Source: Larkinella terrae (GTDB taxonomy: Bacteria > Bacteroidota > Bacteroidia > Cytophagales > Spirosomataceae). From it: DNA of 64,000 nucleotides. Below, piece after piece: positions 1,675-17,011 of this stretch. The position numbers and the translations under genes were made by a program. How positions within the stretch are numbered: position 1 is the stretch's first letter; each line of letters begins with the position of its first letter. Where the stretch lies: the NCBI RefSeq assembly GCF_009668025.1, contig NZ_WJXZ01000018.1:1-64000 (forward strand), given 5' to 3'. The notes under the pieces were generated by a model, which was given only the letters and a program-made list of their open reading frames with translations, was not told where the DNA came from and made no database searches.

Positions 1675-2862
1675 ATGAGAAATACACTCCTTTTTGTAAT
1701 CGGAATTTTGCTGTTGACGGCGACCGAGATCGCGAAAGTTTACTTCATTATGCCGATGCCGGGTAGCCAGGAAGCCGAGACAATCGACTTTGCGTACTGG
1801 ATTCACCAGAATATCTGGATTATCCGGGTGATGGGCTGGCTACTGATCGCTTATCCGGCTTTCAGGCTGCTGACTGAACCGAAACGCGTTTGGCGGAAGG
1901 CGTTGATGCTGGTACTGGTGGCGGTTTACGGGACGGTTTTCTACCTGTTCAACTTCCAGTATTTAGCCGAAAAGATGTTTTACCAGCCTAAAGAAACCGT
2001 AATGCTGGATGTGCAAAACAGCAAAATTCCGCTGAATAAAGTGGTGTTGGGAGTGGTGGTCAACGGGCAGGCGCGGGCCTATCCGATTCAGTTCATCGGC
2101 TACCACCACCAGGTTCGGGACACGGTGGGCGGAGAGCATGTGATGATTACATACTGTACGGTTTGCCGAACGGGGCGGGTGTTCCGGCCACTGGTGGGCG
2201 ATAAAAAAGAAGAATTCAGGCTGGTGGGCATGGACCATTTCAACGCCATGTTTGAAGACAAAACCACCGGTAGCTGGTGGCGACAGGTCAACGGAGAAGC
2301 CATTGCCGGACCGCTGAAGGGCCAGTATCTGCCCGGTTTTCAGGCGGAACAAATGACCCTGAAAGCCTGGACCGAACTGCATCCTGAAACGCTGGTTCTA
2401 CAGCCCGATTCCACGTTCAAAGAGCAATACGCGAATATGGAGCCCTACGAAAGAGGCAAAACCAAACGCAAACTGACGGGGCGCGACAGCCTGACCTGGA
2501 AACCCAAATCGTGGGTGGTGGGGGTCGAGCAGAACAAAACCGCCCGGGCCTATGACTGGAGCCAGCTATTGAAACAAAAAGTCACCAACGACAGTCTGGC
2601 GGGAACTCCGCTGCTGCTCATGGTGGCCTCCGACAGCGCGACGTTTCACGTCTGGAACCGGAAAGTGAATGGGCAGACGCTGCGGTTTTCGGCGGACTCC
2701 ACCGATACGTTCCGGGATCAGGAAACCGGGTCACGCTGGAACCGTAATGGGATCTGTACGGAAGGCTTGTTAAAAGGCAAAAAACTGGCCCGGATTCCGG
2801 CCTCCCAGGAATACCTGCATTCGTGGGAAACCTTCCACCCGGCCTCGTCACGGTATTTGTGA
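1675..2862 (+). CDS. DUF3179 domain-containing membrane protein
   Basis: The protein has 395 residues from the ATG at 1675; an in-frame ATG at 1648 would add nine residues from the palindromic leader and is less likely. The N-terminus carries about three hydrophobic segments in the first 100 residues (LLFVIGILLLTATEIA; IRVMGWLLIAYPAF; LMLVLVAVYGTVFYLF). The rest is a soluble domain with the DUF3179 hallmark TYCTVCRTGRVF, where the two cysteines are the conserved pair, followed by the second half with GSRWNRNG. The biochemical function of DUF3179 is not established. Its neighbours (AhpD-like pair upstream, Kai operon downstream) give no functional link. Confidence 0.85.
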   Translation: MRNTLLFVIGILLLTATEIAKVYFIMPMPGSQEAETIDFAYWIHQNIWIIRVMGWLLIAYPAFRLLTEPKRVWRKALMLVLVAVYGTVFYLFNFQYLAEKMFYQPKETVMLDVQNSKIPLNKVVLGVVVNGQARAYPIQFIGYHHQVRDTVGGEHVMITYCTVCRTGRVFRPLVGDKKEEFRLVGMDHFNAMFEDKTTGSWWRQVNGEAIAGPLKGQYLPGFQAEQMTLKAWTELHPETLVLQPDSTFKEQYANMEPYERGKTKRKLTGRDSLTWKPKSWVVGVEQNKTARAYDWSQLLKQKVTNDSLAGTPLLLMVASDSATFHVWNRKVNGQTLRFSADSTDTFRDQETGSRWNRNGICTEGLLKGKKLARIPASQEYLHSWETFHPASSRYL

Positions 2863-2943: not shown

Positions 2944-2977
2944 CAATCAATGCATACTTAGGTGAAATAATGCCGTA

Positions 2978-3010
2978 AAGGATAGGAGCATTTGCTTCTA
3001 TCCTTTTTCT
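2978..3010 (+). terminator. Rho-independent-type terminator
   Basis: The stem aaggataggagca / tgcttctatcctt (one G-T pair) closes on a 2-base loop and is followed by a T-rich run. It is placed to end transcription from DUF3179 before the Kai operon. Confidence 0.7.
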
Positions 3011-3141
3011 TTAGGTGATGAAGAGGTTTAAACACGGAGCGAAGAACTCCGGTTGTATTTTTGAATAAATCGAACCGGCTCAATCAGCGGTTTTAAGAGC
3101 GTCTGGATTTGATTTGCCCAAAAAACCAGACATATTGCAGA

Positions 3142-3181: not shown

Positions 3182-4891
3182 ATGAGCTTGAAATCCTCAA
3201 ATAATTCTGACTCACCCACCGGTTCCTTACCAAAATCACCTACCGGAATTGCTGGATTAGATGAAATAACCGGTGGCGGAATACCCAAAGGCCGACCAAC
3301 GCTGATTTGCGGAGGAACAGGCTGCGGTAAAACCTTGTTTTCCATCGAATTTGTGGTTCACGGTGCCTTGCTCTACGGCGAACCGGGGGTTTTTATGTCC
3401 TTCGAGGAAAAATCGGAAGAATTGGCGTTGAATGTGGTTTCGCTGGGGTACGATCTGGAGCAGCTTCAGCGGGATAAATTACTCAAAATGGATTACGTCC
3501 GGATCGACCGGAGCGAAATCGAGGAAACCGGTGAATACGATCTGGATGGCCTGTTTATCCGGCTGGGCTATGCCATTGATAGCATTGGGGCGAAACGGGT
3601 GGTGCTCGACACCATCGAAAACCTGTTTTCCGGCCTGCTTGATCAGGGCATTTTGCGGGCCGAACTCCGACGGCTTTTTGAGTGGCTGAAAGGAAAAAAG
3701 GTCACGACGATCATCACCGGCGAAAAAGGCGAAGGCACGTTAACCCGCAACGGTCTGGAAGAATACATTTCCGACTGCGTGATTCTGCTCGATCACCGCG
3801 TTGCGAACCAGATTTCGACCCGGCTTCTGCGCATCGTCAAATACCGGGGAACGGTCCACGGCACCAACGAATATCCCTTCCTGATCGATGAAGCCGGAAT
3901 TTCCGTGTTGCCGATCACCTCGCTGACGCTGGAGCACGATGTTACCTCAGATCGGGTTTCATCGGGCATTCCGTCGATGGACAAAATGCTCGAAGGCAAA
4001 GGGTTTTTCCGGGGGAGCAGCATTCTGGTTTCCGGAACCGCCGGTACGGGAAAAACCAGTATTGCGGCCAGCTTTGTTCATGAAGCCTGCAACCAGAAAA
4101 AGCGGGCGATCTACTTTGCCTACGAAGAATCACCGCAGCAGATTATCCGGAATATGCGCTCGATCGGAATCGACCTGCAGCAGCACGTCGACAGCGGTTT
4201 GCTGCAATTTCAGGCTTCCCGGCCGTCGCTCAATGGGCTGGAAATGCACCTGCTGTCGATTCACAAAGCCGTTGAGCTGTATGATCCTCAGGTGGTTGCG
4301 CTTGATCCGATCACCAACCTGATTACGGTGGGTTCGATGAGTGAAGTGAAGTCGATGCTGATCCGGCTGATTGATTTTCTGCAATCGCGACAGATCACGG
4401 TGATGTTTACGGCGCTTTCGCTCAATACCATAGTTAATGAACAAACCGATGAAGGTGTTTCGTCGCTGGTGGACGCCTGGGTGCTGGTGCGCGAAATCGA
4501 GTCGAACGGCGAGCGAAACCGGGGCTTGTATATCATGAAATCGCGTGGGATGAAGCATTCGAACCAGGTTCGCGAATTTGTCATTACCGACGAAGGACTC
4601 AATCTGGTGGATGTTTACCTGGGTCCGGAAGGGGTGTTGACGGGTTCGGCGCGGGAAGCCCAGCAGTTGCAGGAACAGACCGGTGTCGTTCTACACCAGA
4701 ACGCCATTAACCGGAAAGACCGCGAAATTGAGCGAAAACGTTTCGTGCTGGAGTCGAAGATTGCCAGCCTGAAAGAAGAGTTTGAGTCGATGCAGGACGA
4801 GTTGAATAGAACCTACGTGGAAGAGGAGTTGCGCAAAGAGGTGATGGAGAAAAACCGGGAACAATTGACACGAAACCGCCACGACGAATAA
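3182..4891 (+). CDS. kaiC: KaiC-family double-domain ATPase/autokinase
   Basis: This 569-residue protein has two RecA/KaiC domains. CI (about 12-245) has Walker A GGTGCGKT with K50 and the catalytic pair E75/E76; CII (about 250-485) has GTAGTGKT with K291 and E315/E316. By hand alignment to cyanobacterial KaiC, the dyad Ser431/Thr432 corresponds to S427/S428 here, and Thr426 to T422, so both phosphosites are hydroxyl residues but the second is Ser. After CII comes a charged, heptad-like tail (about 500-569) predicted to be a coiled coil. This recalls the extended KaiC proteins of non-cyanobacteria such as Rhodobacter, rather than the short KaiA-binding tail of Synechococcus KaiC (519 residues). 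No kaiA is present. It is the first gene of kaiC-kaiB-kaiB-HK-RR. Rhythmicity cannot be inferred; an hourglass timer or energy sensor is possible. Confidence 0.95.
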   Translation: MSLKSSNNSDSPTGSLPKSPTGIAGLDEITGGGIPKGRPTLICGGTGCGKTLFSIEFVVHGALLYGEPGVFMSFEEKSEELALNVVSLGYDLEQLQRDKLLKMDYVRIDRSEIEETGEYDLDGLFIRLGYAIDSIGAKRVVLDTIENLFSGLLDQGILRAELRRLFEWLKGKKVTTIITGEKGEGTLTRNGLEEYISDCVILLDHRVANQISTRLLRIVKYRGTVHGTNEYPFLIDEAGISVLPITSLTLEHDVTSDRVSSGIPSMDKMLEGKGFFRGSSILVSGTAGTGKTSIAASFVHEACNQKKRAIYFAYEESPQQIIRNMRSIGIDLQQHVDSGLLQFQASRPSLNGLEMHLLSIHKAVELYDPQVVALDPITNLITVGSMSEVKSMLIRLIDFLQSRQITVMFTALSLNTIVNEQTDEGVSSLVDAWVLVREIESNGERNRGLYIMKSRGMKHSNQVREFVITDEGLNLVDVYLGPEGVLTGSAREAQQLQEQTGVVLHQNAINRKDREIERKRFVLESKIASLKEEFESMQDELNRTYVEEELRKEVMEKNREQLTRNRHDE

Positions 4892-4897
4892 TCGTCG

Positions 4898-4969
4898 GTT
4901 TACGGTATTCGGTTTTCGCCGGGCCGACGCGCGTTTTTGCACGGATACTGAAAACCGTATACCGTAAAC
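4898..4969. repeat. Inverted repeat between kaiC and the first kaiB
   Basis: The 20-bp arms at 4898-4917 and 4950-4969 pair with one mismatch across a 32-bp spacer. They fill most of the 98-bp gap inside an otherwise tightly packed operon. There is no T-run. It may attenuate or process the transcript between kaiC and kaiB, or it may be one of the dispersed palindromes of this genome. Confidence 0.7.
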
Positions 4970-4989
4970 TATAAATCCACTGCACCTAA

Positions 4990-5289
4990 ATGGAAACAAA
5001 AGAGGAAAAATGGGAGTTAAGGCTTTATGTAGCCGGAAAAACCGCTAAATCCGTTACGGCTCTGACGAATTTGAAACGCTACTGCGAAGAACATTTGAAG
5101 GGAAAATACGTCATTGAAGTAATTGACTTGCTGGTGGAGCCCCAACTGGCGGAGGGTGACCAGATTCTGGCCATTCCGACGCTGGTAAAAAAAGTGCCGG
5201 AGCCGATCCGGAAAATAATCGGCGATTTGTCGAATGAAGAAAAAGTATTGGTAGGATTAAATATTCGTCCGGCAAAGAAAGCAGAATGA
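4990..5289 (+). CDS. kaiB: KaiB-family protein 1
   Basis: This 99-residue protein aligns end to end with cyanobacterial Kai[53 protein letters not shown] and the signature [17 protein letters not shown]. KaiB is a thioredoxin-like, fold-switching protein that binds the KaiC CI ring when CII is phosphorylated. Its stop overlaps the ATG of the next kaiB (ATGA, 5286-5289), so the two are translationally coupled. Of the two copies this one is closer to classical KaiB and is the better candidate for the KaiC partner. No active-site CxxC is present, as expected for KaiB. Confidence 0.94.
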
Positions 5290-5615
5290 TCGAGCCCGCA
5301 AAACTTTCGGATTTAGAGTCTGATGACAATAACGGAAAGACCTACGAACTGCGTTTGTTCGTAACCGGAGCTTCGATTAATTCCATTCGCGCCATCGCCA
5401 ACCTGAAGCACATTTGTGAAAGCTATATTCCGGGGCGGTATTCCCTGGAAATCATCGATGTATATCAGCAAAAGGACCTGGCCGAAAGTGAACAAATTAT
5501 TGCGTTGCCTTTATTGATTAAAAAGTTTCCCATGCCCCAGCGCAGGCTGATCGGCGATATGTCGGACACGGCAAAGGTGCTCAAAGGCCTGGGTATTTCC
5601 ACAAAAAGTGAATGA
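5286..5615 (+). CDS. KaiB-family protein 2 (divergent paralogue)
   Basis: This 109-residue protein has a KaiB core: [60 protein letters not shown] and KVLKGLGIS. It starts about ten residues further N-terminal than KaiB 1 and departs from the consensus at several places (ALPLL for the usual PTL; VTG for VAG). ATGA overlaps join it to KaiB 1 upstream and to the histidine kinase downstream (5612-5615). Tandem unequal KaiB copies suggest separate jobs, for example one binding KaiC and the other signalling to the kinase, but this is inference. Confidence 0.92.
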
Positions 5616-6892
5616 ATACGGCCAAAACGTATGAGCAACTGGTTCGGGAAAATGAAGCCTTGCTCCTTCAGTTGGAGGAGGCTACCGAAACCATACACGC
5701 GATCCGGACGGGCCAGGTCGATGCCCTGGTGGTGCAGGGAAAAGACGGCCACGAACTCTACAGCCTGAAAACCGCCGATCAGACCTACCGGGTTTTTATC
5801 GAAACCATGAATGAGGGCGCGGTGACGCTGAACGAGGAAGGGCTGATTCTGTACTGCAACTCGCGGTTTGCATTGATGGTCGGATTGCCGCTTTCAAAAG
5901 TCATCGCGGTTTCTTTTACCACGTTTATTCCTCCCGAATGCAGCGAAGAATACGAACGCTTGTTTGAACTGGGCTGGACCGAAAACGGGAAAGTGGAAAC
6001 GTCCATTCTGAGTACTCAGGGCCTTGTGCCTTGTCAGCTTTCGGCGACGACGCTGGAACTGGACGGCGGTATTGCGATGAGCCTGATCATTACCGATCTG
6101 ACCAGCCAGAAAGAAACCCAGAAGTTGCTGAAATCCAACAACCAGCGGCTGGAAGAAATGAATGTTGCCCTCGAAATCAGCAACCACGATCTGCAGCAGT
6201 TTGCGTCGGTGGCGTCCCACGATTTGCAGGAACCGCTGCGGAAAATCCAGATGTTTTCGGAAATCCTGAAAGACCGGCACCTGGCCGAGCTGCCAGCCGA
6301 CAGCGTCAAATACCTGGAAAAAATCATCGACTCGTCGAACCGAATGCGGTCGATGATTATCGACATTCTGAGTTATTCGCGGCTGGCGTCGCCCCAGGAT
6401 ACCTACATTCTGACCGATTTGAATGAAATCGTCAGCGAAGTTCTAAAAGATTTTGAATTACGGATTCAGGACAAGAAAGCGCAGGTGCTGGTCGGTAAAC
6501 TTCCCAAAATTGAAATCAATCCGGGGCAGATCCGGCAGGTTTTTCAGAATCTGATCAGCAATGCCCTTAAATTCAGTAAGGCCGATCAACCGCCGGTGAT
6601 CGAAATTAACTGCACGGCCATGGGTCATCCCAACGGTCAGGCCGACGATCTGTTTTGTACGATTACCGTTTCCGATAACGGAATTGGTTTTGATGAACTG
6701 TATGCTGACAAAATTTTCTCGCTGTTTCAGCGCCTGAATACCAAAGATATTTACGAAGGCTCAGGCATTGGGCTGGCGGTAACCAAGCGGATTATCGACA
6801 AGCACAATGGCCGAATTAAGGTACAGAGTCGGGAAGGAGTAGGGTCTTCATTCATTATTAGCTTACCTTTGAGGCAAAATAATCCGTCCTGA
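5612..6892 (+). CDS. Soluble PAS-domain sensor histidine kinase of the Kai operon
   Basis: This 426-residue protein has no membrane segment. It has a short coiled-coil start (about 5-45), a PAS domain (about 55-170), a second helical linker, a HisKA domain with phospho-acceptor H203 in SVASHDLQEPLRK, and an HATPase_c domain with N-box NLISNALKFSK, DNGIGFD and GSGIGLAV. The HDLQEPLRKI form is typical of phytochrome-like/CikA-like kinases. Its position, overlapping kaiB 2 and one base before the response regulator, makes it the probable output or input kinase of the Kai module, analogous to SasA or CikA. It lacks the KaiB-like N-terminus of SasA; the neighbouring KaiB 2 might supply that contact in trans. 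Confidence 0.94.
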   Translation: MNTAKTYEQLVRENEALLLQLEEATETIHAIRTGQVDALVVQGKDGHELYSLKTADQTYRVFIETMNEGAVTLNEEGLILYCNSRFALMVGLPLSKVIAVSFTTFIPPECSEEYERLFELGWTENGKVETSILSTQGLVPCQLSATTLELDGGIAMSLIITDLTSQKETQKLLKSNNQRLEEMNVALEISNHDLQQFASVASHDLQEPLRKIQMFSEILKDRHLAELPADSVKYLEKIIDSSNRMRSMIIDILSYSRLASPQDTYILTDLNEIVSEVLKDFELRIQDKKAQVLVGKLPKIEINPGQIRQVFQNLISNALKFSKADQPPVIEINCTAMGHPNGQADDLFCTITVSDNGIGFDELYADKIFSLFQRLNTKDIYEGSGIGLAVTKRIIDKHNGRIKVQSREGVGSSFIISLPLRQNNPS

Positions 6893-6893
6893 A

Positions 6894-7319
6894 ATGACTC
6901 TGACCCACACTAAAAAGAAAATACTTCTGGCGGAAGACGACGGCGACGACCGGGATTTTTTTGCCGACTTTTTAGGTGACCGAACCGATATCGAACTGCT
7001 GCCCAGCCTGACAACCGGCGTTGAGGTGATTGAGTACCTCGACGGAATTTCACTGCCCGAACTGCTGCCGGATATTATTATTCTGGATCAGAATATGCCC
7101 AAAATGACCGGTCTGGAAACGCTGGTTGCCATTCGGTCAGATGAGCGGTTTTCCCCGATCAATGTTGTCATTTACTCGACCTACGTGGGGGAGGAACTGG
7201 CCGTTGCCTGTCTGGAACAGGGGGGTACTTTAGTGAAGTCGAAGCCTGTTTCGAAGGGCGGTTACAACGAGATGATGGATGACATTCTGAAGGTATGCAA
7301 AAGCATATCGGTTGGTTAA
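6894..7319 (+). CDS. Single-domain response regulator of the Kai operon
   Basis: This 141-residue receiver-only protein has an acidic pocket in LLAEDDGDDRDFF, phospho-acceptor D65 in IIILDQNMPKMTG, a T/S position in VVIYSTYVG and the conserved Lys-Pro in VKSKPVS. It resembles the Rcp1 class of small receivers that pair with bacteriophytochrome-type kinases. It starts one base after the kinase stop, so the two are a cognate pair. With no output domain it must act by protein contact or phosphorelay. The glgE ATG follows 22 bp after its stop with no hairpin between. Confidence 0.94.
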   Translation: MTLTHTKKKILLAEDDGDDRDFFADFLGDRTDIELLPSLTTGVEVIEYLDGISLPELLPDIIILDQNMPKMTGLETLVAIRSDERFSPINVVIYSTYVGEELAVACLEQGGTLVKSKPVSKGGYNEMMDDILKVCKSISVG

Positions 7320-7341
7320 ACACGAAATTTCGAGATTGACT

Positions 7342-9360
7342 ATGGCCACTCGCACTAAAACCTCCAAATCGGCCGCTGCGGCTTATAAACTTGCCAATTT
7401 ACCGGTGGATGGCCGGACCCGCGTCGTAATCGAGCGGGTGACGCCCGAACTCGACGGCGGGCGGTTTCCGATCAAAGCCGTTCCGGGCGACACCATTCCC
7501 GTTGAAGCCGATATTTTTCTGGATGGTCACGACAAACTGGCCGCACGGCTGTTGGTTAAACACGCCGACGATCCGGACTGGACGGAGGTGCCGATGGTTT
7601 TTATCAATAACGACCGCTGGGGCGCGGCTTTTTCGGTCGAAAAACCGGGTCTTTATTCGTACACGTTTGAAGCCTGGGTGGATCATATCGCGTCGTGGCA
7701 GCACGAAGTGAGTCTGAAAGTGGCGGCCGGTCAGCGCATTACGAGTGAGTTGAAAGCCGGGGCGGTTTTTGCCGACGGCATGGCCGAAAAAGCCGAAGGT
7801 GACGACAAACCAACGCTGGAGTGGGTGGCTGGTCTGTTCAGGGAAGGAGCGGAAGAATACAATGAGATTCAGTATAACGAAGCGATCCGGGTGGCCCAAA
7901 GCGAGCAGTTTACGGACTTGCTCAACCGCTACCCCGAACGGCAGCATGCCAGCCGCTTCGGGCGTGAACTGATTATCGATGTCGATCGTCCGAAGGCCGG
8001 TTTTAGCACCTGGTACTGCCTGTTTCCCCGTTCGGCCTCGCAGGAACCGGGCCGGCACGGCACGTTCCGGGATGTTGAAAAACTGCTGCCGCGCATCGAA
8101 GCGATGGGCTTTGACGTGCTGTATCTGCCGCCGATTCATCCCATTGGCCAGGCATTCCGGAAAGGAAAGAACAATAATGTGATGTCGGAACCCGGCGAAC
8201 CCGGCGTTCCTTACGGAATTGGTTCGGAACTCGGCGGCCACACCGCCATTCACCCCGAGCTGGGCACGCTCGACGATTTCAAACACCTGATTGCCATTGC
8301 CAAAAACCACGGGATGGAAGTGGCGATGGATCTGGCGATTCAGGTTTCACCCGATCATCCCTGGGCCAAGGATCACCCGGAATGGTTTAAAAAACGGCCC
8401 GACGGAACCATTCAGTACGCCGAAAATCCGCCCAAGAAATACCAGGATATTTACCCGGTTTATTTCGAAACCGACGACTGGCAGAGTCTCTGGATCGAAA
8501 TGAAGGAAACAATGCTGACCTGGGCGTCGTGGGGCGTTCGGATTATCCGGGTCGATAATCCGCATACCAAACCGTTCCAGTTCTGGGAGTGGCTGATTTC
8601 GGAGGTGAAGAAAGTCTACCCTGATCTGATTTTCCTGGCCGAAGCGTTCACCAAACCGAAGGTGATGCAGCAACTGGCGAAGCGCGGTTTTGCCCAGTCG
8701 TATACTTATTTCACCTGGCGCAACAACAAACGCGAACTGGAGGAATATATGACCGAGCTGACGCAGACCGAAATGAAGAGCTACTACCGCCCGAATTTCT
8801 GGCCGACTACGCACGACATCAACCCCTACATTCTGCAATCGGGTCATGAACCGCAGTTCCTGATCCGGTATTTGCTGGCGGCCACGTTATCCTCCAATTA
8901 CGGCATCTACGGGCCGTCGTTTGAATTGATGGAACACCTGCCGTTTCCGGGCAAGGAAGAATACATCGACTCGGAAAAATACGAAATCCGGCATTGGGAC
9001 TGGAACCGCACCAACCGGCTGACGTACCTGATTGGACTCGTCAACCGCCTTCGGCGGGAAAACCCGGCCCTGCAAACCACCAATAACCTGACGTTTTGCC
9101 GCATCGACGACGACGCGCTGATGGGGTACCTGAAAGTGACCGGCAATAACCGCCTGCTGATGGTAATCAATACCGACGCGTACAACCGCCGGGCTGCCAT
9201 GATCCAGGTGCCTACCTGGCAACTGGGAATCGCTGACGATCAGGAGTATACGGTGTTTGATCTGCTGACCGGTGCATACTATACCTGGAAAGGTCAGTGG
9301 AATTATGTCGAGCTGGATCCGTACCTTTTGCCGATGCACCTGCTGAAGATTGAGGTGTAG
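7342..9360 (+). CDS. glgE: Alpha-1,4-glucan:maltose-1-phosphate maltosyltransferase (GlgE)
   Basis: GlgE (GH13_3) transfers maltosyl units from maltose 1-phosphate to alpha-1,4-glucan. The ATG at 7342 gives 672 residues; an in-frame TTG at 7312 overlapping the preceding gene is less likely. The N-terminal all-beta domains (about 15-190) precede the GH13 barrel. Nucleophile D405 lies in IIRVDNPHTKPFQFWEW, acid/base E434 in FLAEAFTKPKV and the third carboxylate D492 in TTHDINPYIL. The 29-residue spacing of the first two matches the characterised Streptomyces enzyme (D394/E423). Maltokinase (12501) and GlgB (14869) nearby complete the branch. Its 22-bp distance from the Kai response regulator suggests shared transcription. 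Confidence 0.95.
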   Translation: MATRTKTSKSAAAAYKLANLPVDGRTRVVIERVTPELDGGRFPIKAVPGDTIPVEADIFLDGHDKLAARLLVKHADDPDWTEVPMVFINNDRWGAAFSVEKPGLYSYTFEAWVDHIASWQHEVSLKVAAGQRITSELKAGAVFADGMAEKAEGDDKPTLEWVAGLFREGAEEYNEIQYNEAIRVAQSEQFTDLLNRYPERQHASRFGRELIIDVDRPKAGFSTWYCLFPRSASQEPGRHGTFRDVEKLLPRIEAMGFDVLYLPPIHPIGQAFRKGKNNNVMSEPGEPGVPYGIGSELGGHTAIHPELGTLDDFKHLIAIAKNHGMEVAMDLAIQVSPDHPWAKDHPEWFKKRPDGTIQYAENPPKKYQDIYPVYFETDDWQSLWIEMKETMLTWASWGVRIIRVDNPHTKPFQFWEWLISEVKKVYPDLIFLAEAFTKPKVMQQLAKRGFAQSYTYFTWRNNKRELEEYMTELTQTEMKSYYRPNFWPTTHDINPYILQSGHEPQFLIRYLLAATLSSNYGIYGPSFELMEHLPFPGKEEYIDSEKYEIRHWDWNRTNRLTYLIGLVNRLRRENPALQTTNNLTFCRIDDDALMGYLKVTGNNRLLMVINTDAYNRRAAMIQVPTWQLGIADDQEYTVFDLLTGAYYTWKGQWNYVELDPYLLPMHLLKIEV

Positions 9361-9441: not shown

Positions 9442-10293
9442 ATGATTCAGCAAGCCATTCAATATCCCGCACTGATTACACATTTGAAAGGATTCAGTAA
9501 TTACACGTGGTTGCACTATTGCGATGGACGTAAATTGCTGTTAGCCAAATCTCTCGGTTATTTTGAAAAGCGGTTGCCCGGTTTTTTTCGGATTCATAAA
9601 ACCGCCATGATTAATCCGCATTATGTGACGGATCTTCAGGCACCGCCGGGCCACAAAATGGCGGGGTCAATTACCTTGAAAGGGGAGATAAAATTGCCCG
9701 TCAGCCGTCGGCGTTGGCACGAAGTGGTCGACCCGATCACGATTGCCATGCTGAAAAGTCCAGCTTCTTTTCAGGCCGCTTCCGCCAGCGACCAGCCGGA
9801 GACCATTCAGCCGGTTCCGGATTCAGTTGAACCAGCTACCCATAACCGGAAACAGCCTTACAAGCACGTCTGGATCGTGATGGCGGATGAAATGAAAGCG
9901 GGACTGGTTCGGCAGTTGATCCATGAAAAATGGCCTCAGTGGTGGATTGAGTTATTCGAGACCGGCACCCGGCTGCAAAATGCCCTGCCCGCTGCGGTGG
10001 GTTCTGATTTGCCTGCCATGATCATTCTCGACGGTAGCGAAACCCGGAGTATGCTGACGCTGAAGTCGATCAAAGAAAGTCGCGACTACCGGTTCATTCC
10101 CACGCTGGTTTTGAGTTCGGCCGGGAGCCAGGATCTTTCCCAGGAGGGCTACGCATCCGGCGCTAACTCTGTCATCGTTCACCCGTCGGACCTGACCCGG
10201 TTTATTCAGGTACTGGAAAAAACATTTCGCTACTGGCTGACGATGGCTGCGGCTCCCAGTGCCTCGGCGATAAACAGGCCATTGGCGGCCTGA
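9442..10293 (+). CDS. LytTR DNA-binding protein with C-terminal degenerate receiver
   Basis: The ATG at 9442 gives 283 residues; the TTG at 9391 is a weaker option. The N-terminal domain (about 10-95) is LytTR: ALITHLKGFSNYTWLHYCDG, KLLLAKSLGYFEKRLPGFFR and IHKTAMINPHYV. A Pro/Ser-rich linker (about 105-130) leads to a receiver-like fold (about 135-265). This has D197 at the phospho-acceptor place (MIILDGSE) but H247 where the invariant Lys should be (VIVHPSD), and only a weak acidic pocket. The order, output first and receiver last, is the reverse of AlgR/LytR regulators. It lies between glgE and an Rcp1-like regulator, so it may regulate this locus. Phosphorylation is doubtful. Confidence 0.88.
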   Translation: MIQQAIQYPALITHLKGFSNYTWLHYCDGRKLLLAKSLGYFEKRLPGFFRIHKTAMINPHYVTDLQAPPGHKMAGSITLKGEIKLPVSRRRWHEVVDPITIAMLKSPASFQAASASDQPETIQPVPDSVEPATHNRKQPYKHVWIVMADEMKAGLVRQLIHEKWPQWWIELFETGTRLQNALPAAVGSDLPAMIILDGSETRSMLTLKSIKESRDYRFIPTLVLSSAGSQDLSQEGYASGANSVIVHPSDLTRFIQVLEKTFRYWLTMAAAPSASAINRPLAA

Positions 10294-12500: not shown

Positions 12501-14177
12501 ATGTTCGATTCAACTGCTTCCAACCTGACCAGTCAGCAATCCTGGGCGAATCTGATGCAGGATCACGACGCCATCCGGTTGCTGGAAACGACGGTTTTGC
12601 CGCCCTACCTGAATTCCTGCCGCTGGTTTGCCGGAAAAGCCCGCCAGCAAGCTTACTTTCGGGTTCAGTTTGCACACGAAATTCCGTATCGGGCTGACGC
12701 GGAAACCAGCGACCAGGCTTTTCTGGTGATTGTTGAAGTGGGTTACGCTGATGGGGAAACTGAAAGTTACCTGCTCCCGCTGTCTTTTGTGGAAAGGGCT
12801 CAGCCGGAAATTCCGCCCAAAGGGATTCTGACGACGGCTTTGTTCGACCAAAAACCGGGCCGGATCGTCGATGCCATTTACGATGAGCGGTTTCGGCGGG
12901 CGCTTTATTTTAATCTGGTCCATCAGGAAACGCTGACGCAGCAAAGCGGACAACTCCGGTTTCACCGGGGACGCGGGCTGGCGGCTGACGACATTGACGC
13001 CGAGGTGAGCAGTCGCGTGCTTCCGGTCGATTCGAGCAATTCGGCGCTGGTTTTTGGCATTTCGTCGCAGGGCGAAAAATACTTTCTGAAACTTTACCGC
13101 AAACTGTTTCAGGAAACGAATCCGGAAGTGGAACTGGTGAGTTTTCTGACGGAGAAAAGTAATTTTGACCATATTCCGGCCTACGCGGGAAGTGTGGTCT
13201 GGGAGCAGGAAACGGGGGCGGATGTAACGCTGGGCATGATGCAGCGGATGGTTGAAAACCGCCACGATAGCTGGAACCAGACGGGCGATGACCTTAACGA
13301 TTTTCTGTATGCGGTTCCGAACCGCCTGTTTTCGGTAAAAGAAGAAGTATTCGAGCGCGTGGAATTGCTGGGCAGGCGAACGGGGCAGATGCACCTGGCG
13401 CTGTACAATTCTGACCCGGACGAAGCGGCTTTTGCGCCCGAACCGTTCAGCGACGAGTACCGGGAGTTCATCATTCAGCGGTTTGAAAATCTGTTGGAAC
13501 GCCGGTATAACCTGCTGATCGACAATTACGTGAAGCTCGATCCGCTGGCGCAGCGTCTGGCGTGGGTCTTTATGGAAGCGAAGGAAATGATCGATGAGTT
13601 TGTTGATGATTTCAGAAACCGCCCGCTCGAATCGCTCCGGATCCGGATTCACGGGGATTATCACCTGGGGCAAGTGCTGGTAACCGGTAAAGACTTCATT
13701 ATCATTGATTTCGAAGGCGAACCGGAAAGCAGTATTGCCGAACGGAAGATCAAGCACTCGCCCCTGAAAGATGTCGCCGGGATGATTCGGTCGTACCACT
13801 ACGCGGTTTCTGCCAAGTTGTTTGGCAGTACCGAAACGGCGGGTATCGAGCCCGATCACCTGCAACGCGTTTCCGAACGCTGGTTCAAATTGATTCGGGA
13901 TACGTATCTCGACGCATACCTGGAAACCATCGGGAGCCCACATCCGCTGTTTAAGAACAACAGCGAAGTAAATTTCCTGTTGCTGGTTTACCTGCTCGAA
14001 AAGGCGGTTTACGAACTCGGTTACGAAATCAGCTACCGACCCGCCTGGGTCAAGATTCCGCTGAAAGGAATCATGGACGTGATTCGGGAAATTGAAAAAA
14101 TACGAATTGCCGATCCAACGCGGGATTCGGAACTTCCGCTGCTGCAGGTAGGCTTGTTGCAGTCGAAAAAAGAGTAA
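12501..14177 (+). CDS. Maltokinase (Mak/Pep2-type)
   Basis: Maltokinase phosphorylates maltose with ATP to maltose 1-phosphate, the donor used by GlgE. The 558 residues have an N-terminal cap typical of Mak (CRWFAGKARQQAYFRVQFA) and a C-terminal aminoglycoside-phosphotransferase-like lobe. The catalytic loop is HGDYHLGQVL with D386, and the metal-binding motif is IIDFEGEP with D403. It is longer than mycobacterial Mak (about 455) and resembles the Mak half of TreS-Mak fusions, but no trehalose synthase domain is attached or encoded in the window. It sits with glgE (7342) and glgB (14869), so a role in the GlgE glucan pathway is strongly supported. Confidence 0.9.
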   Translation: MFDSTASNLTSQQSWANLMQDHDAIRLLETTVLPPYLNSCRWFAGKARQQAYFRVQFAHEIPYRADAETSDQAFLVIVEVGYADGETESYLLPLSFVERAQPEIPPKGILTTALFDQKPGRIVDAIYDERFRRALYFNLVHQETLTQQSGQLRFHRGRGLAADDIDAEVSSRVLPVDSSNSALVFGISSQGEKYFLKLYRKLFQETNPEVELVSFLTEKSNFDHIPAYAGSVVWEQETGADVTLGMMQRMVENRHDSWNQTGDDLNDFLYAVPNRLFSVKEEVFERVELLGRRTGQMHLALYNSDPDEAAFAPEPFSDEYREFIIQRFENLLERRYNLLIDNYVKLDPLAQRLAWVFMEAKEMIDEFVDDFRNRPLESLRIRIHGDYHLGQVLVTGKDFIIIDFEGEPESSIAERKIKHSPLKDVAGMIRSYHYAVSAKLFGSTETAGIEPDHLQRVSERWFKLIRDTYLDAYLETIGSPHPLFKNNSEVNFLLLVYLLEKAVYELGYEISYRPAWVKIPLKGIMDVIREIEKIRIADPTRDSELPLLQVGLLQSKKE

Positions 14178-14200: not shown

Positions 14201-14794
14201 ATGGAAATAACCAGTCTGGATCAGTTGGATTTAACGCGGCAATACACCTACGCCGATTACCTGAGCTGGCGAATGCAGGAGCGGCTGGAGTTGATTCGGG
14301 GCTATATCTGGAAAATGTCACCCGCACCGAGTCGTCGGCATCAGCAGTTGGTGGGAAAATTCTTTTTGCCGTTTGGTAATTACCTGAAAGGAAAACCGTG
14401 TCAGGTTTTTATTGCTCCTTTCGATGTTCGGCTGCCGCGAACGAATAAAATCACGAATGAGTCCATTGTCACGGTCGTTCAGCCGGATTTGTGCATCATT
14501 TGCGACAGATCGAAGCTGGACGATGCCGGTTGCGTTGGGGCGCCCGATCTGGTGATTGAGGTATTGTCGAAAGGCAACACCAAAAAAGAAATGAAGGAAA
14601 AATTCAGCGCCTACGAAGAAGCTGGTGTTCGTGAATACTGGGTGGTTCTGCCGGAGTACAACAATGTATTGGTTTATACCCTGAACGAACAGGGGCAGTT
14701 TATCAGCCAACATCCTTACGATGAAAGCGATATGATTTCGCCGGCCATTTTTCCGGAATTACAGATTGATCTGCGCGAAGTTTTTGAAGAGTAA
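14201..14794 (+). CDS. Uma2-family (DUF820) putative endonuclease
   Basis: This 197-residue protein has the PD-(D/E)XK-like Uma2 pattern: the N-terminal YTYADYLSWRMQERLELIRG, the central VQPDLCIICDRSKLDDAGCVGAPDLVIEV and the KEKFSAYEEAGVREYWVV helix. The Asp of QPDL and the Asp/Glu of PDLVIEVLS are the likely metal ligands. Uma2 proteins are abundant in Cytophagales and cyanobacteria but poorly understood. It is inserted between maltokinase (23 bp upstream) and glgB (74 bp downstream) and has no evident tie to glucan metabolism. Confidence 0.9.
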   Translation: MEITSLDQLDLTRQYTYADYLSWRMQERLELIRGYIWKMSPAPSRRHQQLVGKFFLPFGNYLKGKPCQVFIAPFDVRLPRTNKITNESIVTVVQPDLCIICDRSKLDDAGCVGAPDLVIEVLSKGNTKKEMKEKFSAYEEAGVREYWVVLPEYNNVLVYTLNEQGQFISQHPYDESDMISPAIFPELQIDLREVFEE

Positions 14795-14868: not shown

Positions 14869-16875
14869 ATGGCGAAACGTACGACTAAAACCAGTCCCCA
14901 AAATTCTGACCCAAAACCGGAAACTGAGCTGGCTGCTCCGGCACCGGCGCAATCGACATCCTCGCCTGAATCGGGGCCTTACAGTCGGCTTACCGAATTT
15001 GATATTTACCTGTTCCGTGCCGGAAAGCACACGCGTCTGTACGAGAAACTGGGTTCGCACGTCGTGGAAGTAAACGGCGTTGTGGGTACCTATTTTGCCG
15101 TTTGGGCACCGTCGGCCCGCTACGTGTCCGTCATCGGGAATTTCAACGGCTGGAACAAAGGCAGTCATCCGCTGAATGTCCGCTGGGACAGTTCGGGAAT
15201 CTGGGAAGGTTTTGTGCCGCACATCGGACGGGGTGAAGTTTACAAATATGCCATCACGCACGTGAACGGTCGCGAACTCGAAAAGGGCGATCCATTTGCG
15301 CTCTGGTGGGAAACGCCCCCCAAAACCGCATCCGTGGTTTGGGATACCTGGTATGAGTGGAAAGACGATTACTGGATGCGGAACCGGGGCAAATTCAATG
15401 CCCTCAACAAACCTATTTCCGTCTACGAAATTCACCTGAATTCGTGGCGTCGCGATCCCTCGGAACCCGCCCGGCAGTTGTCATACAACGAAGTGGCCGA
15501 TGCGCTGGTGCCGTACATCAAGGAACTGGGCTTCACGCACGTCGAATTTATGCCCGTCATGGAGCACCCCTACGATCCGTCCTGGGGCTATCAGATCACG
15601 GGTTATTTTGCACCGACGAGCCGGTTCGGGACGCCCCAGGATTTCATGCAGATGATCGAACGGCTGCACCAGGAAAACATTGGTGTTTACCTCGACTGGG
15701 TGCCCTCGCATTTTCCCAACGATGCCCACGGGTTGTACGAGTTTGATGGCTCCCACCTGTACGAGCACCCGGACCCGCGAAAAGGTTATCATCCCGACTG
15801 GAAAAGCTATATATTTAACTACGGTCGCAACGAGGTCCGGGCGTTTCTCCTCAGCAATGCGCTGTTTTGGCTGGATCGTTTCCACGCCGACGGCTTGCGG
15901 GTCGATGCCGTAGCGTCGATGTTGTACCTGGATTATTCGCGGAATCACGGCGAATGGGAGCCCAATATTTTCGGTGGCCGGGAAAACCTGGAAGCGATTT
16001 CGCTTTTCAAGGAACTGAACGAAGCGGTTTATAAGGATTTCCCCGAAGCCCAGATGATTGCCGAGGAATCGACGGCTTTTCCGGGCGTCACGCGACCTAC
16101 GTATACGGGCGGTTTAGGCTTCGGCATGAAGTGGATGATGGGCTGGATGAACGATACCCTGCGGTATTTTCAGCGCGATTCCTATTACCGTCGCTGGCAC
16201 CAGGACGAGCTGACCTTCAGCACGGTCTACGCGTTTTCGGAGAACTTCATGTTGCCTTTTTCCCACGATGAAGTCGTGTACGGCAAAAAGTCGCTGATCA
16301 GCAAAATGCCGGGCGACGAGTGGCAGCGGTTTGCGAATTTGCGGTTGCTGTTTACCTACATGTTTACGCATCCCGGTACTAAACTGCTGTTCATGGGCAG
16401 CGAATTCGGGCAAACGTCGGAGTGGAAATTCGACGGCAGTCTCGACTGGCACCTGCTCGATTATGCGCCCCACCAGGGCATGAAAGAATGTATGAAAGCG
16501 CTAAACCGCCTGTATCGCAGCGAACCGGCGCTTTATGAACAGAGTTTTGTGGCCGAAGGGTTTGAATGGATCGACACGATGGACCGCGAAAACAGCACCA
16601 TTGTTTACGCCCGGAAAGGTACCCGGACGAAAGAACAGATTGTGGTTGTGCTGAACATGACGCCCGTTCCCCGTACCGATTACCGCATTGGCGTACCGGT
16701 TTCCGGGACCTGGCTTGAGCTGTTCAACAGCGATGACCGGGCGTTTTTTGGCAGCGGTTTAACAAATTCTGAACCAATCGTTTCACAGCCGCAGGAGTGG
16801 CACGGACGTTCGGCTTCCGTTGTGCTGACGATTCCGCCCCTGGCAGCGGTGGTTTTGAAATACCAGAATAACTGA
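14869..16875 (+). CDS. glgB: 1,4-alpha-glucan branching enzyme (GlgB)
   Basis: GlgB cuts alpha-1,4 chains and re-attaches them in alpha-1,6 linkage. The 668 residues start with a Ser/Pro/Ala-rich tail (1-40), then a CBM48-like domain (about 65-165, YFAVWAPSARYVSVIGNFNG) and the GH13 barrel. Nucleophile D346 is in DGLRVDAVASM, acid/base E399 in IAEESTAF and D467 in FSHDEVVYG. The spacings of 53 and 121 residues equal those of E. coli GlgB (D405, E458, D526). It lacks the extra N-terminal N1 domain of E. coli GlgB. It completes the branching step of the GlgE route encoded nearby. Confidence 0.96.
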   Translation: MAKRTTKTSPQNSDPKPETELAAPAPAQSTSSPESGPYSRLTEFDIYLFRAGKHTRLYEKLGSHVVEVNGVVGTYFAVWAPSARYVSVIGNFNGWNKGSHPLNVRWDSSGIWEGFVPHIGRGEVYKYAITHVNGRELEKGDPFALWWETPPKTASVVWDTWYEWKDDYWMRNRGKFNALNKPISVYEIHLNSWRRDPSEPARQLSYNEVADALVPYIKELGFTHVEFMPVMEHPYDPSWGYQITGYFAPTSRFGTPQDFMQMIERLHQENIGVYLDWVPSHFPNDAHGLYEFDGSHLYEHPDPRKGYHPDWKSYIFNYGRNEVRAFLLSNALFWLDRFHADGLRVDAVASMLYLDYSRNHGEWEPNIFGGRENLEAISLFKELNEAVYKDFPEAQMIAEESTAFPGVTRPTYTGGLGFGMKWMMGWMNDTLRYFQRDSYYRRWHQDELTFSTVYAFSENFMLPFSHDEVVYGKKSLISKMPGDEWQRFANLRLLFTYMFTHPGTKLLFMGSEFGQTSEWKFDGSLDWHLLDYAPHQGMKECMKALNRLYRSEPALYEQSFVAEGFEWIDTMDRENSTIVYARKGTRTKEQIVVVLNMTPVPRTDYRIGVPVSGTWLELFNSDDRAFFGSGLTNSEPIVSQPQEWHGRSASVVLTIPPLAAVVLKYQNN

Positions 16876-16903: not shown

Positions 16904-16910
16904 AATGCCG

Positions 16911-16997
16911 AATGTAAAATGATGAACACCGAATGGAAAAGTGAAAGGCTGGGATCGGCGCAACCACTTTTACATTCGGTGTTCATCATTTTACATT
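16911..16997. repeat. Long palindrome, 25-bp perfect arms
   Basis: Positions 16911-16935 are the exact reverse complement of 16973-16997, with a 37-bp spacer, in the gap between convergent glgB and the pirin-like gene. The arm words (atgatgaacaccgaatg) recall other palindromes in the window (22661-22739, 30178-30253). Confidence 0.85.
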
Positions 16998-17011
16998 TAT
17001 CATTAATCCAT

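Follow-up and report, generated by a model that had tools for sequence, protein, structure and literature searches.

A kai cassette joined to glgE in Larkinella and its probable origin by a single insertion

In Larkinella, a Kai cassette with its own histidine kinase (HK) and receiver is physically joined to the alpha-glucan gene glgE, as the preliminary description of this DNA had proposed, and the join is kept in six of the nine genomes of the genus that were compared (labelled G000 to G008). We hold it somewhat more probable than not that a single insertion brought the kai genes before glgE and that transcription of the kai genes now runs on into glgE, whose expression follows that of the Kai proteins. 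Sugar storage could thus be tied to a timer or an energy gauge through one transcript. The role of Kai proteins in non-photosynthetic bacteria is largely open; the insertion supplies a testable output gene, and close relatives with the same glgE locus and no kai genes at the site, members of the same genus, provide natural controls.

Organization of the kai-glgE unit

All coordinates refer to the window, i.e. the whole analysed stretch of 64,000 nucleotides, and the genes, hairpins and control element described here lie on the plus strand. The unit comprises kaiC (3182..4891; 569 amino acids, a pair of KaiC ATPase domains followed by a C-terminal extension; Pfam KaiC, 4.3e-106), kaiB1 (4990..5289; Pfam KaiB, 9e-27), kaiB2, which encodes a more divergent KaiB (5286..5615; Pfam KaiB, 1.1e-22; 4KSO, 2.9e-21), the HK gene (5612..6892; N-terminal segment, PAS, HisKA and HATPase_c domains in Pfam), the gene of a single-domain response regulator (RR) with D65 (6894..7319; Pfam Response_reg, 2.1e-12), and glgE, encoding a maltosyltransferase (7342..9360, ATG at 7342; Pfam GlgE_dom_N_S, 3.6e-55). 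A gap of 98 bp separates kaiC from kaiB1, kaiB1 and kaiB2 as well as kaiB2 and the HK gene overlap by 4 bp, and gaps of 1 bp and 22 bp follow between HK and RR and between RR and glgE, respectively; a check of the open reading frames returned these frames, overlaps and gaps exactly as first described. All six genes pass the Pfam cut-offs, and dN/dS lies between 0.02 and 0.15 for each of them in the three species pairs computed.

The closest solved sequence to the glgE product is GlgE 3ZSS (1e-166, full-length match), and both the N/S and the C-terminal domains are present according to Pfam. Downstream, at a distance of 81 bp from glgE, lies a gene whose product has a LytTR DNA-binding domain and, by prediction, a receiver at its C-terminus (9442..10293; Pfam LytTR, 1.6e-10), followed by genes for a maltokinase (12501..14177; NCBIfam TreS_Cterm, 400 bits) and the branching enzyme GlgB (14869..16875; NCBIfam GlgB, 963 bits), both above cut-off; TreS is found above cut-off elsewhere in the genome (G000:C1:311723). 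With maltokinase and glgB nearby and TreS in the genome, the locus is, by its predicted gene content, a GlgE-pathway cluster. None of the nine Larkinella genomes contains GlgC above cut-off, and GlgE may therefore be the main route to alpha-glucan. Regulation of the GlgE pathway has been called very sparsely studied in the available text of one paper (PMC11046441).

Distribution and origin of the join

The join occurs in six of the seven kaiB-bearing Larkinella genomes (G000, G002, G004, G005, G006 and G008), with a steady RR-glgE gap of 20-23 bp, two other gaps being variable (12-130 bp between kaiC and kaiB1, 169-383 bp before kaiC). Together with the low dN/dS values of the six genes, this conservation exceeds what chance would give. 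The six form one clade (bootstrap 97 and SH-aLRT 98 for glgE; SH-aLRT 99 for KaiC and 98 for the kinase). In G001 and G003, the site is unoccupied, with the order DUF3179-glgE-LytTR and no match to a kai gene at the glgE locus; a separate kai cluster of G001 groups with another genus, g33, in the KaiC and kinase trees (96-99).

The DUF3179 gene, which directly adjoins glgE where kai is absent from the site, forms the left flank of the window's unit (1678..2862; Pfam DUF3179, 3.2e-56) and is followed by a terminator-like hairpin with a 13-pair stem and a T-rich tail (2977..3006). In G001, which has glgE next to DUF3179, the DNA 3' of the latter gene resembles this hairpin region (87% over 47 bp, 1.7e-11) and has matches in four of the six kai-glgE genomes (G000, G002, G006 and G008; E 6e-10 or below); the match is missing in G004 and G005, which counts against an insertion. 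At the right junction, the glgE 3' leader gave no clear match (2 to 206 of 1000 shuffles scored as high).

Next to the hairpin lies a conserved candidate control element, AAACAC-N9-AA-N4-RGTTRTR (3030..3057), which is common to the upstream regions of glgE in G001 and G003. The window has a single occurrence of it, where 0.01 are expected, and this overlaps a 5-pair hairpin scored as terminator-like. The element was found at the locus in eight of the nine Larkinella genomes, with two other matches across all nine; the pattern was derived from the same sequences and its presence in them is therefore not independent. When a block was built from G001 and G003 only, the number of shuffles (of 2000) scoring as high or higher was 0 for G004, 1 each for G002, G005 and G008, 5 for G000 and 23 for G006. 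In Bacteroidota, the -7 promoter motif is TAnnTTTG. This motif fits the element in three of the eight genomes only (G000, G001 and G003), so that the element is perhaps not itself the promoter. As an ancestral promoter of kaiC it was rejected, because the strict pattern is found in none of 69 other kaiC upstream regions, a rejection qualified by the best two of these 69, which score no lower than G006, the weakest of the six genomes (22 of 37).

Comparison of the genomes shows how the genes are ordered, how occupied sites differ from unoccupied ones, that the six go back to one origin, that they have an element in common with the unoccupied sites and that the short gap is constant. The most likely explanation of these features is that the ancestor of the six species acquired the kai cassette in one insertion event between glgE and its former control region, because the element that precedes glgE in relatives without kai at the site precedes kaiC in the six. 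Less probably, kai was instead lost from the line of G001 and G003.

Outside the genus, 65 kaiB-bearing genomes of the family were compared (63 windows of 12 kb and two of about 6 kb). The core order kaiC-kaiB-kaiB-kinase is ordinary, being present in 64 of them, and the genes directly 3' of the kinase are otherwise diverse. Neither glgE nor a maltokinase gene nor glgB was found around kai in any of the 65 windows, and kai and glgE lie at least 368 kb apart in the 21 pairs located on the same contig. The conserved neighbourhood asked for in the preliminary description as a test of its claim therefore holds within Larkinella and fails beyond it. A core kai operon that exists in the family without glgE, and the lack of linkage outside the genus, would also fit neutral hitch-hiking, in which the cassette landed by chance, glgE is transcribed with it merely for want of its old control region, which was cut off, and Kai signalling is irrelevant to alpha-glucan. 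We regard this as a less probable but serious alternative; the persistence of the join in six species with a gap of 20-23 bp speaks against it, weakly, because the loss of an independent promoter could equally explain why the join survived.

A general storage clock of KaiBC and GlgE in Bacteroidota is very improbable. Its one favourable observation, GlgE in 57 of the 65 kaiB-bearing family genomes outside the genus against 155 of 222 overall, has genome size and descent as confounders, and a survey of the order showed no GlgE in 53 of the 65 genomes with kaiB that lie outside the family. A kaiB position is listed for 11 of the 12 that do have GlgE, and in none of them is it near glgE (same contig in five, at least 170 kb apart). 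As a conserved neighbourhood, the general kai-glycogen timer hinted at earlier is thus refuted by the absence of linkage outside Larkinella in the sequences of both surveys. In the freely accessible papers listed as matches, nothing was found on a connection of kai with glgE or with glycogen in heterotrophs; for Defluviicoccus genomes, kai and glgE genes are both reported in one paper, whose available text does not link them.

Transcription of glgE

The short gaps, the synteny and the lack of a terminator-like site in a plus-strand scan of 6894-7342, which bears out the first description, indicate that glgE is probably co-transcribed with kai. That glgE is merely a neighbour with its own promoter inside RR or the 22-bp gap appears improbable: a sigma-70-like match inside RR (7049-7078) is weak (9/12) and within chance expectation, the non-coding space amounts to only 20-23 bp, and the old upstream element sits before kaiC. 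A better match lies at the end of kaiC (4865-4892; 11/12); five such matches were seen against 6.1 expected, and the consensus differs from that of Bacteroidota. In all six kai-glgE genomes, the 250 bp that precede glgE are free of TAnnTTTG, which is uninformative because only about 0.06 occurrences are expected per stretch. The gap between kaiC and kaiB1 contains a strong hairpin not mentioned in the preliminary description (4898..4969; inverted repeat, 20-nt arms, 95% complementary; fold z = -4.0). A comparable one is present in G006, and the other four kai-glgE genomes have gaps of 12-13 bp at this place. In these two species the hairpin counts against co-transcription, and read-through could be weakened.

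Kai proteins

KaiC passes the NCBIfam model PRK09302 (739 vs 408 bits) and does not reach the cyanobacterial KaiC model (340 vs 546 bits). Its Pfam match consists of two stretches, and the open reading frame contains the Walker A motifs GGTGCGKT and GTAGTGKT. The closest solved sequence is Rhodobacter sphaeroides KaiC 8DBA (1e-188), the alignment running to residue 566 and including the C-terminal extension; judged by sequence, the protein is of the long type solved from that organism. S427 and S428 align opposite the residues replaced in 8FWI and are invariant across nine sequences; two serines at the phosphorylation site are described as a KaiC2 trait (PMC5520375, available text). The KaiB domain was recognized by Pfam in kaiB1 (93 bits) and kaiB2 (80 bits; cut-off 27), kaiB1 remaining below cut-off for both NCBIfam equivalog models (105 vs 110 and 101 vs 145 bits); its closest solved sequence is KaiB 8FWJ (2.6e-27). 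KaiA was detected in the control, S. elongatus, and in none of the nine Larkinella genomes, in agreement with the KaiA-less timer first described.

Histidine kinase, receiver and output

In cyanobacteria, Kai output proceeds via the kinases SasA and CikA and via RpaA, with glycogen metabolism among the outputs. The analogy drawn to this pathway was not supported, and a SasA-RpaA-type output was rejected on the domain content of HK and RR (Pfam, NCBIfam). The KaiB-like N-terminal domain of SasA is absent from HK, since PRK09303 covers only kinase residues 166-422 (101 vs 342 bits), a CikA pseudo-receiver was detected neither by Pfam nor by NCBIfam, and RR, with 141 amino acids, is a lone receiver in which Pfam recognizes Response_reg only and no DNA-binding domain. 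The residues D15, D16, D65, T96 and K117 of RR are invariant in seven sequences. The N-terminal segment of HK is the best conserved part of the kinase and occurs once in the genome; the predicted structure has a mean pLDDT of 63.8, with the N-terminal part mostly below 50, and therefore does not reveal how Kai is read. The LytTR gene is possibly the last gene of the kai-glgE unit. Its product gave no receiver domain match at E up to 1, but the predicted model of its C-terminal end and Foldseek match receivers, and the protein is a possible DNA-binding output.

Proposed mechanism

The favoured insertion would have separated glgE from its former control element; glgE would be transcribed from the kai operon as its 3' portion, perhaps with the LytTR gene behind it, and its expression would therefore rise and fall with the Kai proteins. 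KaiC probably acts like the R. sphaeroides protein as a KaiA-independent ATPase and kinase, and its phosphorylation would track the ATP-to-ADP ratio, with KaiB resetting it. The kinase would sense the state of KaiC and KaiB via its strongly conserved N-terminal segment and would phosphorylate the lone receiver, perhaps also the predicted receiver of the LytTR protein. In this scheme, Kai would control glgE and might affect alpha-glucan. By analogy, a storage timer or an energy gauge is a plausible role, because phosphorylation of the closest solved KaiC, that of R. sphaeroides, tracks the ATP-to-ADP ratio (PMC10076222, available text). The furthest-reaching version, in which a KaiBC energy-state timer captured the control element of the alpha-glucan polymerase and one transcript became a self-contained storage timer by one insertion, is speculative and on balance doubtful.

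Comparison with known systems

The unit resembles the cyanobacterial SasA/CikA-RpaA system in that Kai is linked to a kinase-regulator pair and, in the proposed scheme, to glycogen metabolism as an output, and differs in that the Larkinella kinase carries a PAS domain and the regulator has no DNA-binding domain. The KaiABC circadian oscillator requires KaiA, which Larkinella is without. Larkinella shares its phylum and the two-serine KaiC type with the Bacteroidetes group possessing only KaiB2 and KaiC2 (PMC5520375); the available text of that paper mentions neither receiver nor glgE neighbours of this group, and 'glycogen' does not occur in its main text. Operons with consecutive kaiC, kaiB and PAS histidine kinase genes are described for Rhodopseudomonas palustris and R. 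sphaeroides (PMC4794148, available text); Larkinella also has these three kinds of gene side by side, with the addition of a second kaiB, a lone receiver and glgE. Like the glgE-treS/mak-glgB clusters described in the available text of PMC11046441, the locus has maltokinase and glgB near glgE, but a kai cassette precedes glgE and two regulators lie between glgE and the maltokinase gene. Another close counterpart is R. sphaeroides KaiBC (8DBA, 8FWI, 8FWJ; PMC10076222, available text), with a KaiC of nearly equal length, paired serines, KaiB and no KaiA. In the R. sphaeroides and KaiC2 type, a C-terminal coiled-coil extension makes the dodecamer, and the Larkinella extension aligns in sequence with that of 8DBA; compared with this KaiBC pair, the Larkinella unit has a second kaiB and includes a receiver gene as well as glgE.

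The kai-glgE gene block

The six-gene block of kaiC (3182-4891), two kaiB genes (kaiB1, 4990-5289; kaiB2, 5286-5615), a histidine kinase gene (HK, 5612-6892), a gene for a single-domain response regulator (RR, 6894-7319) and glgE (7342-9360) was borne out by an ORF check of coordinates and gaps, and the family assignments by Pfam and NCBIfam agree. The preliminary description had also proposed a KaiA-less Kai set running into glgE without a terminator; both points held, as a KaiA search gave matches in none of the nine Larkinella genomes and the terminator scan of the window lists no terminator-like site between RR and glgE. Among solved sequences, KaiC is closest to the Rhodobacter sphaeroides protein (8DBA, 1e-188); the two align through the C-terminal extension, and S427/S428 align opposite the residues mutated to glutamate in 8FWI. 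The window proteins pass the cut-offs of PRK09302 (KaiC) and Pfam KaiB and do not reach those of the NCBIfam cyanobacterial KaiC model and the NCBIfam KaiB models.

Six Larkinella genomes (G000, the window genome, and G002, G004, G005, G006 and G008) share this block, with an RR-glgE gap of 22, 22, 23, 22, 20 and 22 bp, respectively; the kaiC-kaiB1 (12-130 bp), DUF3179-kaiC (169-383 bp) and glgE-LytTR (81-132 bp) gaps are variable. In the pairs computed, dN/dS across the block genes was 0.02-0.15, indicating purifying selection. The weak promoter-like matches that lie within RR and at the kaiC end are no more numerous than expected by chance (5 found, 6.1 expected). Shared transcription from kaiC to glgE is likely. 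A strong kaiC-kaiB1 hairpin (4898-4969), which counts against simple read-through and may fix the amount of KaiC relative to the proteins encoded downstream, occurs only in the window species and its sister G006; it is absent from the other four genomes, where the gap is 12-13 bp.

Probable insertion at the glgE locus

All nine Larkinella genomes contain glgE and seven a kaiB pair. The gene order is DUF3179-kaiC-kaiB1-kaiB2-HK-RR-glgE-LytTR in the six and DUF3179-glgE-LytTR in G001 and G003, with a DUF3179-glgE spacing of 267-271 bp. The kai cluster of G001 is located on a separate contig from its glgE locus, no kaiB was found in G003, and G007 has neither kai genes nor the DUF3179 neighbourhood. 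Near the G001 kai cluster, an ORF (L024, 2787-4994) resembles, as judged by eye, a fused trehalose-6-phosphate synthase/phosphatase and is a candidate only. In the glgE tree the six form one clade (97/98, bootstrap/SH-aLRT) with G001 and G003 as sister (100/99) and G007 outside. The KaiC and kinase trees, obtained by short searches with SH-aLRT as sole support measure, also group the six (99 and 98) and nest the G001 cluster within another genus (g33). The most economical account is that kai was gained once in the common ancestor of the six and separately in G001; an earlier gain followed by loss in the G001/G003 line is possible at the cost of one extra step. Insertion of kai into the glgE locus has good comparative support. 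The observation in the preliminary description is confirmed and its interpretation supported in part; Kai control of alpha-glucan storage is a possibility.

The terminator region of DUF3179 in the G001 DUF3179-glgE spacer is matched in the DUF3179-kaiC spacers of G000, G002, G006 and G008 (E 6e-10 or below), with no such match in those of G004 or G005. It is followed by the element AAACAC-N9-AA-N4-RGTTRTR, whose exact pattern is present at this locus in eight of nine genomes (before glgE in G001 and G003, before kaiC in the six), the pattern being derived from the very sequences in which it was counted; elsewhere in the nine genomes it has two further matches, as has the reversed control pattern. 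As a fairer test, a 44-column block was built from G001 and G003 alone, and 5, 23, 0, 1, 1 and 1 of 2000 shuffles per kaiC spacer reached the score of its best match (G000, G006, G004, G002, G005 and G008, respectively). Among 69 other kaiC upstream regions the top two score 22 of 37, equal to G006 and below the remaining five genomes (23-28). The Bacteroidota -7 motif is TAnnTTTG. Since its strict form lies within the element in only 3 of 8 genomes, and since the window element overlaps a short hairpin scored as terminator-like, we refer to a conserved element and not to a proven promoter. At the right-hand junction of the insertion the comparison gave no clear match.

Signalling components

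KaiBC of R. sphaeroides has been characterised as an hourglass, with the ATP-to-ADP ratio as its driver (PMC10076222). By analogy, we infer the same chemistry for the Larkinella KaiC, which would respond to this ratio in like manner. A SasA-type output, as drawn on in the preliminary description, does not fit the kinase, which lacks a SasA-like KaiB domain in the NCBIfam scan. Its residues 1-57 are the best conserved (mean 72% to the window protein versus 55-63% for other parts, across 66 kinases outside Larkinella, after removal of Ferruginibacter, a duplicated Fibrella entry and G001); no second copy of this segment was found in the genome, and it is a candidate for the Kai-reading part. The RR consists of a receiver domain alone, in which D65 is invariant.

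GlgE pathway and neighbouring genes

Maltokinase (mak) and glgB genes lie downstream of glgE (NCBIfam), a TreS above cut-off (1111-aa frame) is encoded elsewhere in the genome, and GlgC reaches the cut-off in none of the nine Larkinella genomes, with weak matches only. GlgE is likely to be the main alpha-glucan route in Larkinella.

The LytTR protein encoded after glgE (9442-10293) has its LytTR domain first and a predicted (beta-alpha)5 receiver second (pLDDT about 52-80 in this block but 47 for the model as a whole; best Foldseek match 3KHT, 2.7e-06), the reverse of the usual order. D197 of the predicted receiver is invariant, although a Pfam search with E values up to 1 returned no receiver domain. 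The gene also adjoins glgE where kai is missing from the locus (G001 and G003), which makes it part of the glgE locus and older than, or independent of, the kai insertion.

A Uma2-family gene (14201-14794) lies between mak and glgB in G000, G002, G005, G006 and G008, without a match in G001 and G003. The stretch from RR2 to a small secreted gene is short in G000 and G006 and about 4-6 kb longer in G002, G004, G005 and G008 (loci L026, L028, L029 and L032), with a distant kinase match within the extra stretch in L028 and L029. Long intergenic inverted repeats with 19-40 nt arms (1460-1525, 2868-2944, 16904-17004) may represent a genomic repeat family.

Distribution beyond Larkinella

Among 222 Spirosomataceae genomes, 74 gave KaiB matches (72 over cut-off) and 155 GlgE matches. 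Windows around kai (63 of 12 kb, two of about 6 kb) covered all 65 over-cut-off genomes outside Larkinella, the below-cut-off G136 and G178 being left out. The order kaiC-kaiB-kaiB-HK is kept in 64 of them; the exception, G092 (G092:C14:565000-577000, L108), has a degraded locus with a stop in kaiB, no kaiC found and the kinase remaining. A receiver gene precedes kaiC in 23 of the 65 windows (31-39% identity to the window RR over the matched part) and follows the kinase in four. The proposed joining of Kai to glucan synthesis is conserved in six of nine Larkinella genomes but in none of the 65 other kaiB-bearing family genomes, whose windows contain no glgE, mak or glgB. The 21 pairs of kaiB and GlgE on one contig in the family are at least 368 kb apart. 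An order survey that sampled 390 genomes of a larger set gave 65 kaiB-bearing genomes outside the family, 12 of them with GlgE: in five the listed kaiB shares the GlgE contig at a distance of at least 170 kb, in six the listed kaiB is on other contigs, and one has no listed kaiB place. A contig labelled Flavobacterium sp. SUN052 (L036, 7620-11686) carries kaiC-kaiB-kaiB-HK-RR; in the trees both proteins, KaiC and the kinase, cluster with those of the Spirosomataceae genome G158 (99), which points to transfer or a mislabelled contig.

Relation to known Kai systems

The literature searched on KaiC, kaiB, glgE, glycogen, Larkinella and Bacteroidota yielded no kai-glgE link. KaiC-B-PAS/HK operons are described in purple bacteria (PMC4794148), and Bacteroidetes with only KaiB2/KaiC2 have been reported (PMC5520375). 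Compared with the known kai operons, the Larkinella block is of a known operon type to which an output gene, glgE, has been added.
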